From Paenibacillus aceti (GTDB lineage: Bacteria; Bacillota; Bacilli; Paenibacillales; Paenibacillaceae), in NCBI RefSeq assembly GCF_003614185.1, contig NZ_KZ987724.1, positions 2,457,360 to 2,521,359 on the forward strand: a stretch of 64,000 nt of DNA. Direction: 5' to 3'. The position numbers and the translations under genes were made by a program. The notes under the pieces were generated by a model that had not been told where the DNA came from, did not search any database, and was given only the letters and a program-made list of their open reading frames with translations. Positions 4,576 to 61,196 of the stretch are shown in pieces (position 1 is the first letter of the stretch; each line of letters begins with the position of its first letter).

Positions 4576-4760
4576 GTAACGAAACTACATATCGCTATTT
4601 GCGTCAAAAGGAGTGATTTGGAAATCTAACGAAACTGGATATCGCTATTAGAGTAAATCAGGGGCGAAATGGCGGAATTTCATCCCAATAACGATATGGT
4701 GTTTCGTTAGATTTGAGTTGGTGCTGTTTTCGCCGAAATAACGTTATGGAGTTTCGTTAG
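4576..4760. repeat. Four-palindrome intergenic array, family A (copy 1)
   Basis: Four related 21-bp units of the form TAACG-N11-CGTTA (allowing TAGCG/CGCTA) start at 4577, 4627, 4689 and 4739. The first two are in one orientation and the last two inverted. Start-to-start spacing is 50, 62 and 50. Units 2 and 3 can pair into a long hairpin, since AAATCTAACGAAAC faces GTTTCGTTAGATTT. The same element lies in reverse orientation at 42.7 kb with identical spacing and related linkers, including GGGGCGAAATGGCGGA in the central linker. It fills the gap between the convergent rpsT and holA genes. No ORF is supported here. Confidence 0.85.
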
Positions 4761-12180: not shown

Positions 12181-12265
12181 TAACGAAACCACAGAACGCT
12201 CCCCCGTTCCGTTACCATTTTCAGCTGCCCTTTTTGGCGCAAATAGCGATACTCTGTTTCGTTAG
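12181..12265. repeat. Degenerate family-A palindrome array (copy 2)
   Basis: GTTCCGTTAC (12206-12215) and GTTTCGTTAG (12256-12265) are exactly 50 bp apart, as in the last two units of the 4.6 and 42.8 kb arrays. The TTTTGGCGCAAATAGCG lead-in matches the 42.85 kb copy. A forward half-unit TAACGAAAC is at 12181. It lies between comEA and comER, ending 16 nt before the comER ribosome binding site. Confidence 0.7.
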
Positions 12266-12293
12266 AAATCTATGCACGAAAGGAGGGAACGGG

Positions 12294-13261: not shown

Positions 13262-15700
<2,439 letters not shown>

Positions 15701-15733
15701 GATTCTTGAATCCTCCTCTTAAACATCTCCTGA

Positions 15734-16060
15734 AATGTAAAAAACCTCTCCATCCATAGCGTTTATCGCTAGGGACGAGAGGAAATTTCCCGTGGTACCA
15801 CCCTAGTTAGCGTCGGACATGCTTTGCCCTTCGCTCCCTTATGTACCCAGTAACGCGGGTAAGACGATGATGTTACAGAACTGTGCCACTGTGCCAAAAC
15901 ACTATCGACATCAGCACCCTGACCAAGATGGCCAAAGCCAGATCCGTTCGCATCATGACTCCGAGGTGAGTTCATTTGCCCGCTCCAACCGGCTTGCACC
16001 AACCGCCGGCTCTCTGAATGGTGCAGAAATCAAACTAATAATCCTCATCAAAGTCGCATA
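15734..16060 (-). promoter_or_regulatory. T-box leader of leuS (leucine specifier CUC)
   Basis: This RNA leader binds uncharged tRNA-Leu and then prevents termination, raising leuS expression under leucine starvation. The T-box AGGGTGGTACCACGGG is at 15789-15804 (minus strand). Stem I has the AGAGAG bulge with the GGTTGGTGCAAGCC apical element, and the specifier loop reads GAACTCACCTC near 15963-15973, giving CUC (Leu) at 15968-15970. The competing terminator pairs CCTCTC with GAGAGG at 15745-15782 and is followed by T6. Confidence 0.95.
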
Positions 16061-16080
16061 TATCCAATGAGTCACCCTAT

Positions 16081-16109
16081 ATTATATAGAAAGTTTCTTC
16101 CAAACGCAA
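16081..16109 (-). promoter_or_regulatory. Sigma-A promoter of the leuS T-box transcript
   Basis: On the minus strand TTGCGT (16104-16109), exactly 17 bp, TATAAT (16081-16086), just upstream of the T-box stem I. Confidence 0.7.
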
Positions 16110-16239
16110 CAGCCCACGTAATAGCCCTGATTTTTCAAAACTCCATCCCTTTACAGGTTTTCTCAACAGGAGTATAATTGCAGTTGTTCCCTTCAGTTCA
16201 TCATTTGCTGCACTTGATGAGTGGATCGGATTCTAGCGC

Positions 16240-16313
16240 CGAGACGTGGCTCAGCTTGGTAGAGCGCTTGCTTCGGGAGCAAGAGGTCGCAGGTTCAAAT
16301 CCTGTCGTCTCGA
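16240..16313 (+). tRNA. tRNA-Pro (anticodon CGG)
   Basis: A complete cloverleaf. Acceptor CGAGACG pairs with CGTCTCG, the D-arm has GCTC/GAGC, and the anticodon stem CTTGC/GCAAG encloses the loop TTCGGGA with anticodon CGG. The T-arm has TTCAAAT. The discriminator base is A at 16313 and CCA is not encoded. A short T run follows. It stands alone, divergent from leuS. Confidence 0.96.
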
Positions 16314-16883
16314 TTTTTATAGTAAATAAGGGTTTCTGGACTTTCGAGCATTAATTCGTTTAGTGGTCAGAGGCAGAAGCTGCTCTGTAACTACGGACAA
16401 CTACCTGATGGATTATCGATCTTGGGGAGTTGTTTTTTTGTGTTTGCAGCATAATCGGTACGAATAGATGTATAAAAGCAGTTATATCACGGGTGAACAG
16501 CAAAACGCACCAATATAGCTGCATATTCACACTTATCTTATTAAGTAACTTTAGTGTTGGAGGATGAGGCATTGCTGGGACACTAGCGACTATTGATCAC
16601 TTTTCAGAACACTTGAGTGTTTTCTAGAGCCACTTTTGAACAGAGTAACTTCAAGCAACTTTGTTTAAATGCAGAGGGTACACCTATTTCGCAAGAAAAC
16701 CGTTAAGCACCACTTATAATTGTATTTCGTACATCTAAATAAATTATTCCTGCGATTATAACCGAAAATCAGCATTCTAAGTGTAAGTTTTGCAATTAAA
16801 GTAACGCTGGGATCGGTTGGTGAGGATTTAGTTGTACATTGTGCTATTAACTAATTAGGCGAGGTTAAAGGAGAGTTCTTATC
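16314..16883. other. 570-bp gene-free stretch after tRNA-Pro
   Basis: AT-rich, with no reading frame having both a ribosome binding site and protein-like composition. A 70-codon frame on the minus strand (16360-16572) lacks both. A short ACACTTGAGTGT palindrome near 16609-16620 is the only structure noticed. No clear remnant of an integrase or insertion sequence was seen. Confidence 0.5.
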
Positions 16884-17258
16884 ATGACTAGGAAAAATAT
16901 TGCTTTAGCATCTCTGTCTGTTTGCCTGATCGTGGCAGTTATCTTCCTTTTTTATCAGCAGCTTCAACTCCATCAGGATCCGAAAGTCTATAGCCTCACC
17001 GTTGAAACAGCGGACTTACGGATTAAGGACATCGAAGTTGTTGTCTATCCTAACTCTGTGTATGTATCAGATCACGATTTGGAGGTCATTGGGGAAGATA
17101 AACAATTTGATGGTGTAGCATACAGCGTTTCTATCGGCGGAAACATGGTACTGTCGAATAGTCAAGCCGATGATCCATTTACTTTACCCGACGCCCTTCA
17201 AGGCAAGTTGCACTATACAACCACTGGCGACCATGGGAAAAATGTAATTCGACTATAA
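16884..17258 (+). CDS. Small membrane-anchored or secreted protein of unknown function
   Basis: The 124-residue product has a short positive N-terminus and one hydrophobic segment (about residues 7-24, IALASLSVCLIVAVIFLF). A soluble domain of about 95 residues then looks beta-rich (DIEVVVYPNSVYVSDHDLEV, FDGVAYSVSIGGNMVLSN). It has no Cys lipobox. The ATG is preceded by AAAGGAGAG at good spacing, so translation is likely. Its 3' end overlaps the convergent XRE gene by 6 nt. No family recognised. Confidence 0.65.
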   Translation: MTRKNIALASLSVCLIVAVIFLFYQQLQLHQDPKVYSLTVETADLRIKDIEVVVYPNSVYVSDHDLEVIGEDKQFDGVAYSVSIGGNMVLSNSQADDPFTLPDALQGKLHYTTTGDHGKNVIRL

Positions 17259-37862: not shown

Positions 37863-38004
37863 AGGGTAACCGACTCTTTTTGAAAATTGCAATTAATTAA
37901 AAGGATATGAATTCAAGATTCGATGTCGAGTTACTTCTTGACTTGACTTCGTGATCAAAAGTGAACTTTTTTGAACTACCTCTAAAAACAGGAGATTGCC
38001 ATTC

Positions 38005-40708: not shown

Positions 40709-42430
40709 ATGCAAGCAGACTTGCTCTTATTACAGCCTCATGTGTATAACAGCTATTTCAAGCAATGGAAGCAGCAGAATGTAGCGATTAAGGATGGAAG
40801 ATTTCTATATGTTGGCCCGCGCGGTGAAGATACGTTTCAAGCAGAGAAAGTGATAGATGCACGCGGCCTGTACATGATTCCCGGCTTTGTCGATATCCAT
40901 CTGCATATCGAGAGCACGATGATTACCCCGGAATCATTCTCGCAAGGCCTGCTTCGCAAGGGCATCACGACCATCGTGCCGGAGCCGCATGAAATGGCCA
41001 ATGTGTTCGGCATTGAAGGAGTTCTGGAGATGATTAATGCAAGCCGGAACTGTACTGTAGATATGTTCTACGCCATTCCAAGCTCCGTGCCGGCCACGTC
41101 ACTGGAGACGACCGGCGGGGCGATTGAGATCGAGGATATGGATGCCCTGCTGGCTACCGGCGATGTGATCTGCTTAGGCGAAATCATGAACTATGTAGAC
41201 ATCATTCGCGATCCGGAATGCAAGACCAATCAGATTCTAAAGCATATGCGAGAGCGTTATCCAGACCTGGTCATCGAAGGCCATGTGCCGAAGCTGCTCG
41301 ATCTGGATCTGGCCCAGGTCATCTATGCCGGGGTCGATTCCGACCATACGCATCAGACAGTTGAAGGACTAGAAGCCCGGATCGGTGCGGGCATGTTCAT
41401 TGAGATTCAAGAGAAATCGATGACCCCGGAAGTGATAGACTATCTGATTCAGCATGACGTATCCGAGCATTTCTGCTTCGTGACCGACGATGTAATGGCC
41501 GATTCCTTCCGGGATCTCGGACACTTGAATCAGATCGTACGCAAGGCGATCCAGATGGGCATGGCCCCGGAGCAAGCGATCTATGCAGCCACCTTCTCCC
41601 CTTCGCGCCGGATGCGGATGCATGACCGGGGAGCGATTGCGCCAGGTAAAATCGCCGACTTCCAGCTCGTATCCAATCTTGGCGAGCTAACGCTAGAGTC
41701 GGTGTACAAGAAAGGCTCGGAAGCTTATTCGGCCTCTGATTCGGTTACCTCCTTGCAGGCAGCCGTAGCGTACCGCTTCCCGGATCACTTCTATCACAGT
41801 GTGAAGCTGCCTGAGCTTAGCGAAGCAGACTTCGCAGCTGCGGTTGACGTAGCGGATGGTACTTATCGCTGCCGGGTGATGACCGTGGCCGACGGTTCGA
41901 CATTCACCCAGGAAACTCAGGTTGAATTGACAGTTGCAGGCGGACTACTCCAATGGGAGAACAGCGGCTGCGGAATGATCGCCACCTTCGAGCGCTATGG
42001 CAAAGATGGCGGAAGGGCGTACGGTCTCATTACCGGGGATACGATCAAAAGGGGTGCTGTCGCCACGACCTACTCGCATGACAATCACAATCTGCTGGTG
42101 GTCGGCCATAACATACAGGATATGCTGCTGGCGGCAAATACGGCTATCAAGCAGCAGGGCGGCTTCTGCGTCGCTCTGGACGGGGAGATCAAAGCTAACA
42201 TGCATCTGCCTGTCGGCGGCATTCTGACGGAAGAGCCGCTGGACATCGCTGCTGAGTCGGTGAAACAACTGCGCGAGGCGATGCAATCGCTGGGCTACGA
42301 GCACTATAACCCGATCATGTCCATCGCCACCCATTCACTGCCGGTCAGCCCTTACTTGAAAATCACCGACCACGGCCTGATCGACGTAAACAGCGGCAAG
42401 GTCGTGCCGTTGATCGTGGAGCGGGTCTAA
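40709..42430 (+). CDS. ade: Adenine deaminase
   Basis: Converts adenine to hypoxanthine plus ammonia. The 573-residue product has the amidohydrolase metal site PGFVDIHLHIESTMITPE, then TTIVPEPHEMANVFG and ATFSPSRRMRMHDRGAIAPG. The C-terminal domain unique to Ade has TYSHDNHNLLVVGHNIQDML and NPIMSIATHSLPVSP. Full length for the family. Last gene of the operon binding protein, nucleoside hydrolase, permeases, ATPase, ade; in such an operon it would use adenine released by the hydrolase. Confidence 0.95.
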   Translation: MQADLLLLQPHVYNSYFKQWKQQNVAIKDGRFLYVGPRGEDTFQAEKVIDARGLYMIPGFVDIHLHIESTMITPESFSQGLLRKGITTIVPEPHEMANVFGIEGVLEMINASRNCTVDMFYAIPSSVPATSLETTGGAIEIEDMDALLATGDVICLGEIMNYVDIIRDPECKTNQILKHMRERYPDLVIEGHVPKLLDLDLAQVIYAGVDSDHTHQTVEGLEARIGAGMFIEIQEKSMTPEVIDYLIQHDVSEHFCFVTDDVMADSFRDLGHLNQIVRKAIQMGMAPEQAIYAATFSPSRRMRMHDRGAIAPGKIADFQLVSNLGELTLESVYKKGSEAYSASDSVTSLQAAVAYRFPDHFYHSVKLPELSEADFAAAVDVADGTYRCRVMTVADGSTFTQETQVELTVAGGLLQWENSGCGMIATFERYGKDGGRAYGLITGDTIKRGAVATTYSHDNHNLLVVGHNIQDMLLAANTAIKQQGGFCVALDGEIKANMHLPVGGILTEEPLDIAAESVKQLREAMQSLGYEHYNPIMSIATHSLPVSPYLKITDHGLIDVNSGKVVPLIVERV

Positions 42431-42484
42431 ATGACGAAGAAGCCTAGCATAGTTTGAAAGCCCCTTCCCATAGAGATAGAAAAG

Positions 42485-42663
42485 CCTGCGATTTTGCAGG
42501 AATTTCTTCAATATTTCTACCCGCGATGGTAAATTCCTGCGAAAATGCAGGCTTTTTCCTCTCAGCGGGTAGAATTCGCGGAAAAGAGTACAAAAGCCTG
42601 CATATTTGCAGGCTTTTCCTATTTACAGTTGATTTTATATGCTAATTCCTGCATATTTGCAGG
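42485..42663. repeat. Four-palindrome intergenic array, family B (copy 1)
   Basis: Four 16-bp palindromes of the form CCTGC-N6-GCAGG start at 42485, 42536, 42597 and 42648, spacing 51, 61, 51. Flanks alternate between AAAGCC/GGCTTT and AAATTCC/GGAATTT, so units 1 and 2 form a near-perfect 25-bp inverted repeat. Linkers are 35, 45 and 35 nt. TTCTACCCGC in linker 1 is exactly complementary to GCGGGTAGAA in linker 2. A second array with the same spacing is at 61.0 kb. Confidence 0.88.
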
Positions 42664-42695
42664 CTTTTGGTTGAGAACGGAGCAGTTCCGCAGCT

Positions 42696-42880
42696 CTAAC
42701 GAAACTCCATATCGTTATTTCCACGAAATCAGCACCCACTCAAATCTAACGAATCACCATATCGTTATTGGAGTGAAAATCCGCCATTTCGCCCCTTTTC
42801 AGCCCCAATAGCGGTGCCCAGTTTCGTTAGATTTTGAAAGGGCCTCTTTTGGCGCAAATAGCGCTACATAGTTTCGTTGC
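42696..42880. repeat. Four-palindrome intergenic array, family A (copy 3)
   Basis: Units TAACG-N11-CGTTA start at 42697, 42747, 42809 (TAGCG form) and 42859, spacing 50, 62, 50, identical to the copy at 4.6 kb. Its reverse complement matches that copy also in the linkers, for example GGGGCGAAATGGCGGA in the centre. It follows the family-B array with the same roughly 50-bp step. Confidence 0.88.
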
Positions 42881-42904
42881 AATTTAAACGGGCTGGGTAT
42901 AACT

Positions 42905-42934
42905 GGGGACACTTGGGCATACCCAAGTGTCCCC
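42905..42934. repeat. Perfect 13-bp hairpin before the end of the PfkB kinase gene
   Basis: GGGGACACTTGGG (42905-42917), CATA, CCCAAGTGTCCCC (42922-42934). There is no T run on either side, so it is not a standard terminator. Its centre is about 50 bp from the centre of the last family-A unit, continuing the array rhythm. Confidence 0.75.
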
Positions 42935-42953
42935 GAGATATGCATCAGGTTAC

Positions 42954-43916
42954 TTACCGCTCCACATGCGCCTTCCCGGCAAGCAGCCGCTCGATTTCAG
43001 CCGCGCTCGGCAGACCTTCCCAGTCCCCAATCGCCTGGATCACTTGAGAGCCGATCAGATTTCCGAGACGAACCGCTTCCTCAATCGTATATTCCTTCAA
43101 CAGACCCGCTAGAAATCCGGCACAGAAGCCGTCACCCGCTCCAACCGTATCGATCACATGCTCCACCTTATAGTAAGGAATCGCCGTCAGCTTGCCGTTC
43201 TCCAGTATATAAGTCTCATCATCGCCGCCTTTAATGATGCTTACCGCGGACAATTCACCAAGTCTGGAGATGATCTCCTCCATCGACTCCGTCTCATAGA
43301 GCAGCTTCAATTCATCCAGTCCTGGCAGGAAATAATCCGCCTTCTCCGCCAGTGGCAGCAGCACCTTTCTCGCCTCTTCCACACTCCATAGCTTCAAGCG
43401 TAAATTCGGATCGAAGCTCACCTTCACGCCGTGGCGCTTCGCCATATCCATCGCCGCTGCAGCGGTCTCCGCACAGGATGCGCTTAACGCTGGCGTAATC
43501 CCGGTGATATGCAGAATTTTCGCTCCGGCGATATATTCTTCATTCAGATGCTCGGGAGTCATCTTACTCGCCGCCGACAGCTTGCGATAGTAATAGACAG
43601 AGCTTCTTCCGGCTACATTTTCCCGGATCATCAGCCCGGTTGGCGCTTCTTCTGTGAAGGAGGCACGCGACATATCCACACCCTCACCACGCACCATTTT
43701 ATAGATACGATGTCCGAACGGATCATCGCCAAGCTGGCCGCACCAGCCAGCGGAATGTCCAAGCCGCGACAAGCCGATGGCTACATTCGTCTCAGCTCCG
43801 CCAAAGGACGGTGTCAGATTTGAAGTATATTCAAGCCCCTTGCCCCCCTCAGCGATCAATAATGCCATGCTCTCCCCGAAAGTGACTACTTCCGGAGATG
43901 AATTGCGGTAATGCAT
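42954..43916 (-). CDS. kdgK: PfkB-family sugar kinase, probable 2-keto-3-deoxygluconate kinase
   Basis: Would phosphorylate KDG to KDPG, the substrate of KdgA. The 320-residue product has FGGAETNVAIGLSRLGH, a GQLGDDPFGHRIYK block, VSFDPNLRLKLWS, and the ATP/anion site DTVGAGDGFCAGFLAGLL. The kinase specificity is inferred from similarity to KdgK-type PfkB proteins and because kduI, kduD and kdgA are in the same window, 19-22 kb away. The ATG start has only a weak ribosome binding site. Confidence 0.8.
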   Translation of the reverse strand: MHYRNSSPEVVTFGESMALLIAEGGKGLEYTSNLTPSFGGAETNVAIGLSRLGHSAGWCGQLGDDPFGHRIYKMVRGEGVDMSRASFTEEAPTGLMIRENVAGRSSVYYYRKLSAASKMTPEHLNEEYIAGAKILHITGITPALSASCAETAAAAMDMAKRHGVKVSFDPNLRLKLWSVEEARKVLLPLAEKADYFLPGLDELKLLYETESMEEIISRLGELSAVSIIKGGDDETYILENGKLTAIPYYKVEHVIDTVGAGDGFCAGFLAGLLKEYTIEEAVRLGNLIGSQVIQAIGDWEGLPSAAEIERLLAGKAHVER

Positions 43917-57151: not shown

Positions 57152-57205
57152 AAAAGAGGCTAGGGGCTGTCTCAAAAGTCGATCCTCCGACTTGGGGCCT
57201 CTTTT
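57152..57205. repeat. Nested inverted repeat upstream of the moxR operon
   Basis: Outer arms AAAAGAGGC (57152-57160) and GCCTCTTTT (57197-57205) enclose an inner AAGTCG/CGACTT hairpin. The text GGGGCTGTCTCAAAA inside resembles ends of some insertion sequences, but no transposase is nearby, so this is at most a remnant. Confidence 0.5.
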
Positions 57206-57255
57206 GCGTGCCCAGAAATGTGAACATCCCCTTGTTCTGGCCGGGTCACTCGGAC

Positions 57256-57436
57256 ACGGACATTATTGTCCGTTAGCGTTGATCCTGTGATACTCCCGCC
57301 CTGTAACGGACAATAATGTCCATTACAAGAGAAATTGCCGCGAAAAATTGCATTTTGCGCTTCTAAGGGTCAAAAGTGTCCGTTGGAGGAACATAGTTGT
57401 TGTTTTCATGCCCTAACGGTCATTTCTGACCGCTTG
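57256..57436. repeat. Four-palindrome intergenic array, family C
   Basis: Four 16-bp palindromes of the form CGGACA-N4-TGTCCG (or CGGTCA/TGACCG) start at 57257, 57307, 57367 and 57417; units 3 and 4 are the more diverged. Spacing is 50, 60, 50 and linkers are 34, 44, 34 nt. The sequence is unrelated to families A and B but the geometry is the same. It lies in the 510-bp gap between moxR and spoVAE. The rest of 57016-57526 shows no gene. Confidence 0.85.
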
Positions 57437-57483
57437 ATCCGTGCGATCACATCACTCCTCTGATTAACGTTATTTCTCGCCAA

Positions 57484-57512
57484 AAGGGGCTGCCCTTATT
57501 GGACAGCCCCTT
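57484..57512 (-). terminator. Terminator of the spoVA operon
   Basis: AAGGGGCTG (57484-57492) pairs perfectly with CAGCCCCTT (57504-57512), 15 nt after the spoVAE stop, with TTTT on the minus-strand side. Confidence 0.85.
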
Positions 57513-61018: not shown

Positions 61019-61196
61019 CCTGCAAATATGCAGGAATTTAGTAAAAATTCCAACTCAAGAGAGTAAATTCCTGCGAAAATGCAGGCTTTTTCTTCAAATC
61101 AGCTCGATTTCAATCAGAACGGCCTAAAAGCCTGCACATTTGCAGGAATTTCTTAAAAATAGGAGGTTTCGGGTTAAAAACCTGCATTTTTGCAGC
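61019..61196. repeat. Four-palindrome intergenic array, family B (copy 2)
   Basis: CCTGC-N6-GCAGG units start at 61019, 61070, 61131 and 61181 (the last ends GCAGC). Spacing is 51, 61, 50. Linkers are 35, 45 and 34 nt, the same as the 42.5 kb copy, but their inner sequences differ almost completely; only the unit flanks (AATTT, AAATT, CTTTTT, AAAAG) are shared. The rest of 60971-61267 holds no gene. Confidence 0.88.

Follow-up and report, generated by a model that had tools for sequence, protein, structure and literature searches.

Arrays of four palindromes with a shared 50/60/50 layout are dispersed in the genome of Paenibacillus aceti

The window, which is the whole 64,000-bp stretch of Paenibacillus aceti DNA that was analysed (G000:C1:2457360-2521359, genome size 5.6 Mb), contains six arrays of four palindromic units and a fragment of a further one. 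Exact motifs catch only part of the units, and the remaining ones were read directly from the sequence. Five of the arrays (two of family A, two of B and one of C) had been described in a sequence-only reading of the window, and all are present with the positions and spacings given there. The features are the following.

4577-4759, plus strand: A array in the convergent rpsT/holA gap, units starting at 4577, 4627, 4689 and 4739 (50/62/50).
12195-12281, minus strand: fragment of an A array.
16666-16849, plus strand: E array (51/62/51), the sixth in the window, which lies downstream of tRNA-Pro and came to light in the sequence-blind scan.
42485-42663, plus strand: B array of four CCTGC-N6-GCAGG units starting at 42485, 42536, 42597 and 42648 (51/61/51).
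42697-42879, minus strand relative to the family consensus: A array of four 21-bp units starting at 42697, 42747, 42809 and 42859 (50/62/50).
57162-57511, plus strand: larger MITE-like element around the C array, with the ends AGGGGCTGTCTCAAAAG ... TTGGACAGCCCC (limits set by eye).
57257-57432, plus strand: C array, units starting at 57257, 57307, 57367 and 57417 (50/60/50).
61019-61196, plus strand: B array, units starting at 61019, 61070, 61131 and 61181 (51/61/50).

The degenerate units of the C array are units 3 and 4 (GGGTCAAAAGTGTCCG and CGGTCATTTCTGACCG). The A array at 42697 adjoins the B array at 42485, and the centre of its first unit lies 51.5 bp from the centre of the last B unit. 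A T-box leader on the minus strand was seen beside the tRNA-Pro gene, which is on the plus strand (window 15768-16313).

All three families are dispersed. One window copy of each array was searched against its own genome, and the first look gave 214 candidates for A, 145 for B and 48 for C. Among the 40 candidates scored per family, leaving the query aside, the identity was 78-88% for A, 69-76% for B and mostly 78-91% for C. A, B and C therefore all consist of high-copy extragenic palindromes, as REP/RAYT-type repeats do. Since A and B have dispersed copies, the window's two A arrays are paralogues, as are its two B arrays, and neither pair stands for independent origins. In a sample of 1.004 Mb (C1:100001-500000, 3000001-3400000 and 2417360-2621359, the last of which includes the window) we counted 83 arrays, some of them partial. 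Profiles found 35 of A, 20 of B and 7 of C, and the scan found 21 others with a score of at least 78, some of which are recent tandem copies. Complete runs of four units, called by unit motif in the same sample, numbered 22 for A, 9 for B, 5 for C and 12 for D.

The sequence-only reading had suggested a scan for four palindromes at 50/60/50 regardless of their sequence. A scan of this kind, in which A, B and C were masked and four 20-mers had to resemble one another whatever their orientation, revealed families D and E at about 51/60-62/51, and other unit types emerged in relatives. The D unit is approximately ATAGTTGCAT..ATGCAACTAT and the E unit TTAATTGCA..TACA..TTAA. The same reading had called the three families unrelated. 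This holds for the whole A, B and C elements, whereas half-sites compared by eye follow a pattern like TA[AG][CT][CT]G in families A, C, D, E and F.

We also left the geometry free (gaps of 42-60, 46-75 and 42-60) in 217 intergenic segments of the own genome that exceed 230 bp (134 kb in total, with a CRISPR-like region excluded). Out of 66 matches with a score of at least 78, 28 fell at 49-52/59-64/49-52. In the segments without A, B or C arrays this box, which is 0.9% of the allowed geometries, took 12 of 14 matches. Segments carrying A, B or C arrays held 36 of the 38 matches outside the box, and the 15 of these that were listed are mostly A, B or C arrays whose middle gap measures 55, 58 or 65-67, read as palindromes in shifted register. 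It had been argued that chance cannot easily give the layout five times. The window does not hold five independent events, as the A arrays are copies of each other and so are the B arrays, but the result of the geometry-free scan exceeds chance. The spectrum of repeat distances in intergenic DNA likewise has maxima at 50 (77 places), 51 (63), 112 (38) and 61 bp (33), with a median of 8; its peaks at 67 and 134-135 are put down to a CRISPR-like array.

At a low threshold (score of at least 64, A, B and C masked) all eight geometries compared yielded 47-66 matches. The top scores were 85-89 for 50-60-50 and 68-83 for the others, except for one tandem repeat at 105. The control geometry 62-65/73-78/62-65 gave 14 matches in the own sequence, versus 22 for 50-60-50, and the 14 are probably a CRISPR-like repeat with a period near 67. 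A CRISPR-like array with a period near 67 bp lies at about 14900-17000 of locus L238 (C1 near 2.556 Mb), and the assembly has N runs. Three near-identical segments, each a gene plus arrays of D and E, adjoin it. The duplicated ORF cluster that holds these D and E arrays was considered as an autonomous element and proved to be a gene duplication beside the CRISPR-like array.

Within the families the steps between adjacent units are narrowly distributed. In A, the short gap was 50 bp in 51 of 53 cases and the long gap 62 bp in 22 of 27, with single off-pattern steps at 13, 107, 111 and 118. The steps were 51 (19 cases), 50 (6), 61 (10) and 111-112 (4) in B, 50 (11), 51 (1), 60 (5) and 109 (1) in C, and 51 (20), 50 (8), 61 (12) and 62 (3) in D. 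A length of exactly 183 bp was found for 34 of 43 own A arrays and 95 of 103 A arrays in other species, in a collection that admitted only 49-51/60-63/49-51, so that larger shifts fall outside it. The consensus fraction of the A spacers was 0.67 in the own genome and 0.60 in other species, versus 0.93 in the arms.

The copies of the C element provide a comparison with adjoining DNA. Indels per 100 bp numbered 0.20 in the array, 1.57 in the left flank (30 copies each) and 2.66 in the right flank (28 copies), which makes them 8-13 times rarer within the arrays than in the adjoining sequence of the same copies. Substitutions per bp are also lower in the array (0.072 vs 0.099 and 0.284 beside it), and the ratio of indels to substitutions was 0.028 in the array, 0.158 on the left and 0.094 on the right.

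The spacing is also seen between arrays. Where A abuts B (within 160 bp), the nearest unit centres are 50.5-51.5 bp apart in four of five cases, which may be copies of one composite. In Paenibacillus sp. GM2, chains of 20 and 17 A units keep steps of 49-51 and 61-63 (L246 and L287), and recombination between palindromes could be their source. A arrays are tandemly amplified at the GM2 loci L246, L263, L278, L287 and L291, with periods of about 200-272 bp.

Orthologous loci were compared for the presence of arrays and for their variation in place. For the rpsT-holA gap 30 loci were fetched and 29 were readable (rpsT was not found in one). The gap is empty in G052 and G008, while G000 (P. aceti) and G003 have A-type arrays at different points; by eye, G043, G006, G050 and G015 hold other array types, some incomplete. 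The spot downstream of the rpsT terminator, inspected by eye in the 29 genus loci, holds different array families in different species. G052 lacks the C element at the site orthologous to that of the window copy. Thus both the A array of the rpsT-holA gap and the C copy show the presence and absence at orthologous sites that is looked for in MITEs. Two other loci carry A-type arrays in the same gap in all four species. In these orthologous arrays, 16 of 168 unit columns and 54 of 198 spacer columns are variable (p 1.5e-5; a small sample). The count used G008 and G003 at both loci and G052 at one of them; it omits the own copies, which are in the opposite orientation at one locus and have three units at the other, and the partial copy of G052. 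All five orthologous A copies compared are 183 bp long.

Taken together, these results support the earlier claim that selection acts on the geometry rather than on one sequence. At least five families in this genome share the layout, and the spacing is held while the spacers drift. Further support comes from the other four-unit types in the genus and from the 50-bp step of TAACG-type pairs, which recurs across the order. The claim had been set against the possibility that all arrays are copies of one recent element, and this is not what we see.

The spacers themselves have a rhythm, which we analysed with the units and 4 bp around them excluded. The strongest A/T period was 10.0 bp in own A arrays (34), 9.9 in A arrays of other species (95), 10.0 in B (19 and 18 arrays) and 10.0 in D (6). 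For A of other species a second peak at 11.9 bp was nearly equal to that at 9.9 (0.674 vs 0.692); peaks near 8.6 and 12 are taken as side lobes of the gap layout, which is unproven. The A/T profiles of the middle gap in A (144 arrays), B (37), C (30), D (12) and E (5) correlate in register with r of 0.66-0.87, and negatively at a 5-bp shift. In the outer gaps A, B and D agree, E agrees less and C does not. Related copies inflate the permutation counts and z-scores of these comparisons, and C counts as about one sequence.

Compared with the A template, own arrays had a mean r of 0.47 (67 arrays, A included; null 0.00, sd 0.20). The fit elsewhere was 0.38 in G008 (n 11), 0.11 in G016 (n 13, a mixed result), 0.24 in the survey (5) and 0.20 at the holA loci (12). 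The B-like and F/G-type arrays of G016 miss the template (r -0.48 to 0.13), and two arrays at order-level loci had r of 0.25 and -0.25 (mean 0.00). The A/T phasing is a tendency that is strongest in this clade and is not universal.

To describe the range we used the pattern TAACG-N11/12-CGYTA-N27-30-TAACG, that is, two units 48-52 bp apart, which is silent on the 60 and the second 50. It matches 243 of 393 genomes of the order, in 40 of 49 genera, with up to 145 matches per strand; about 120 genomes, by hand count of the table, have at least ten matches with both strands summed. The reversed pattern gave mostly 0-2 matches (maximum 6), so one or two matches in a genome do not exceed the control. 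Beyond the order, 9 of 183 genomes match, and more than twice only G528 (19/18), G412 (4/6) and G538 (2/2). Matches listed for a sharper A pattern include other Paenibacillus species and Cohnella zeiphila.

The four-unit scan at a score of at least 76 gave 6 matches in 400 kb of the own genome, 11 in 200 kb of G008 and 13 in 187 kb of G016, whose array units include other types such as TTAACGGGAAAATTTCCCGTTAA. In 15 further genomes of the genus (20 kb each) it gave 8 matches, at least one of which looks like simple or coding sequence. At the same score the control geometries 40-50-40, 70-80-70 and 64-75-64 gave 0-1 matches, and 45-70-45, 60-50-60 and 55-55-55 gave 0-8, which we read as the same arrays in shifted register, although this is unproven. 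The region of the window with the adjoining B and A arrays had no plasmid match, and among viral contigs the A pattern was found in none and the B pattern in one.

Gene positions were taken from a simple custom gene caller (coding fraction 0.80-0.85). One of the 83 arrays of the 1.004-Mb sample lies within a predicted gene. Of 82 arrays, 24 fall in convergent gaps, a class that makes up 87 of 600 gaps (p 0.0013), while for divergent gaps the figures are 10 of 82 and 101 of 600, which is not significant. In tandem gaps, 34 of 48 arrays lie nearer to the 3' end of the upstream gene.

A cognate protein was found neither in the 25 largest gene clusters beside arrays, which include no transposase, nor in RAYT or RsfA. 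The RAYT/Y1 transposase (PF01797) as a required partner does not track the arrays: it is present in 157 of 393 genomes, absent from the array-rich G013, G022, G011, G007, G054 and G005, and present eight times in G009, which has no TAACG-type match. RsfA, a Myb-like protein suggested by the Myb site YAACKG, is present in 59 of 62 genomes regardless of arrays, and the array-rich G246 is among the three without it. Both comparisons used counts of TAACG-type matches, so that a genome counted as empty may still carry other families. No recurrent neighbour gene emerged from the 25 largest gene clusters beside the arrays, the two largest of which look ABC-transporter- and AraC-type-like by eye.

The A units are polar, with a conserved TAACGAAAC half and a looser ATCGYTA half. 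Where their orientation can be called it runs ++--, so the element has an approximate dyad, and the units form subterminal inverted repeats of about 75 bp. Accordingly, these short, non-coding copies match the opposite strand of the query, for example with 65-71% identity over at least 138 bases. Conservation stops 3-6 bp beyond the outer half-sites in 146 A arrays, whose edges read YTC|TAACG ... CGTTA|GAR and carry neither a GTAG nor a CGTC tag beside the palindrome. In the same 146 arrays, a comparison of 30 x 30 flank offsets gave no consistent direct repeat of 4-9 bp as target-site duplication; the best 4-mer cell (9 of 146, mean 0.9) presumably reflects tandem arrays. In several species the A units tend to have G-rich 3-nt centres, with the G on the same strand in either half of the array (94 arrays with the same sign, 17 with opposite signs, the rest zero). 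A is therefore a directional element, which explains its low symmetry within the array. In 16 own arrays the G-richness had no clear relation to gene direction.

The sequence-only reading had offered three mechanisms for the fixed layout, one of which was a folded RNA with four hairpins. This is contradicted for family A, the family that our compensation test covers. In 129 A arrays the left arm (TAACGAAAC) is nearly invariant and the right arm varies. At pair 2 each unit has 55-63 changes on the right only and 0-1 two-sided changes, none of them compensated, and at any pair there is at most one compensated case. Position 18, which varies freely, shows no covariation between units 1 and 4 or between units 2 and 3. 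When alignment columns were paired in 30 copies each of A and B, the 25 strongest pairs formed no consistent stem, although single pairs compatible with pairing exist (for example B columns 80 and 107), and Rfam has no match over the window arrays. The centres of C units 1 and 2 had seemed to co-vary by eye, and this pair was not among the 25 strongest. An RNA or single-strand DNA element, with four hairpins or one long hairpin and with B units as bidirectional intrinsic terminators, is thus improbable to us. It would fit the terminator-like B units (5 such sites at 42400-43000, compared with a mean of 0.7 in shuffles), the enrichment in convergent gaps and near upstream 3' ends, and the tendency of the four A units to have their G-rich centres on one common strand. 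The B units, which resemble intrinsic terminators, may act as such.

The main rival is a selfish transposon. Units 1-2 and 3-4 of a non-autonomous MITE would be two transposase sites per end, the spacing would serve the transpososome, and there would be no host function. The inverted repeats of A and the end of conservation just beyond its outer half-sites speak for this, as do the changing contents of the rpsT-holA gap. On the other hand, the 146 A arrays have no peak of target-site duplication, the 25 largest gene clusters beside 162 array loci contain no transposase, and B units have no clear ++-- polarity by eye. Units that vary less than spacers at orthologous positions would not be expected of dead insertions either. 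We consider such a selfish element rather unlikely, although a mobile element that needs the layout, another of the mechanisms proposed earlier, remains a live rival given the arrays present or absent at orthologous sites. Several families may share an ancient common origin. Much less probable is that a single ancient element behind all families merely handed down its layout, with no selection on geometry. A TARYNG-like theme does seem, by eye, to recur in the half-sites of families A, C, D, E and F, and the 17- and 20-unit chains could stem from recombination between palindromes. Yet the spacers are dissimilar between families by eye and agree in length, indels are depleted in C arrays relative to their own flanks, and orthologous A copies keep their 183 bp.

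Of the three proposed mechanisms, a protein that reads the fixed spacing fits best, and better than a mobile element. Our best reading, to which we give an even chance, is that the arrays are dispersed platforms on which a protein binds bent DNA as dimers at four sites; from sequence we infer the binding, the dimers, the bending, the complex and its function. Each array, an intergenic segment of about 165-190 bp, would act at the DNA level as four sites for a sequence-specific dimeric protein. The sites would be about 5, 6 and 5 helical turns apart (50-51, 60-63 and 50-51 bp), and with A/T-rich segments every 10 bp in the spacers, four bound dimers would come to lie on one face of bent or wrapped DNA, joined in one complex. 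It counts against this that 50 and 61 bp are not whole turns at 10.5 bp per turn and are near 5 and 6 only at about 10.2. Related proteins with different site preferences would account for unit sequences that differ by family while the layout stays. The elements would spread within genomes as non-autonomous repeats, and at least some are constrained where they sit. Their most likely use would be a role at gene 3' ends, as a topological or transcriptional boundary of the kind proposed for BIMEs.

If spacing is the trait that is kept and site sequence the one that changes, the elements would expose a DNA-organising or mobile machine that has been active at hundreds of sites per genome across an order of common bacteria. 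Dispersed bacterial repeats would then prove open to selection for their three-dimensional layout, beyond sequence or mobility. We more tentatively consider, and lean against, an order-wide class in which paralogous proteins would each recognise a palindrome of their own and yet build one kind of four-dimer complex on wrapped DNA of 5-6-5 turns. Such a class would conserve the layout while the site sequence diversifies, and would represent a chromatin-like bacterial unit with hundreds of copies per chromosome at gene 3' ends.

In form the arrays resemble BIMEs or MITEs, and by the tests done they are outside the RAYT/REP system. REPINs of Pseudomonas, each with two REPs plus a cognate RAYT, are dyad-symmetric and non-autonomous, reach hundreds of copies and are vertically long-lived. 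The arrays are likewise dyad-symmetric, non-autonomous and high-copy, but have four sites each, and some array-rich genomes are without any PF01797 match. Looping or wrapping operators and centromere-type clusters (phage repressors, sopC/parC, RacA sites) also place several dimer sites at regular distances. They are few per genome and their protein is known, whereas the arrays number hundreds per genome and several site sequences coexist. The BIME/REP elements of enterobacteria are high-copy intergenic palindromes at regular distances, and passages in two papers report that they bind gyrase, IHF and Pol I (PMC2817692, PMC2267715). The arrays share the copy number, the intergenic position and the regular distances and have a 3' bias, but differ in their four sites at a fixed 50/60/50, in their several sequence families, in lacking the GTAG/CGTC tag (A) and in having no link to Y1. 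BIME units alternate in orientation, unlike the ++-- of A where callable. In the titles, abstract openings and passages that were searched, we found no description of a shared four-site geometry.

MITEs such as bcr1 are short, dispersed and non-coding. The arrays are so as well, with inverted repeats in A and with C inside a MITE-like element. They differ from MITEs in that A has no detectable target duplication, that no related autonomous element was found among the 25 largest gene clusters beside arrays and that the four-site geometry is common to several families. One paper calls bcr1, an element of the Bacillus cereus group, a MITE (PMC3733652). A further MITE-like repeat of about 190 bp with the ends GTTCAAAAA...TTTTTGAAC, and by eye with no 50/60/50 layout, was observed in part at 37908-37983 of the window and in the sample at C1 ~161353, 197088, 263648 and 283466.
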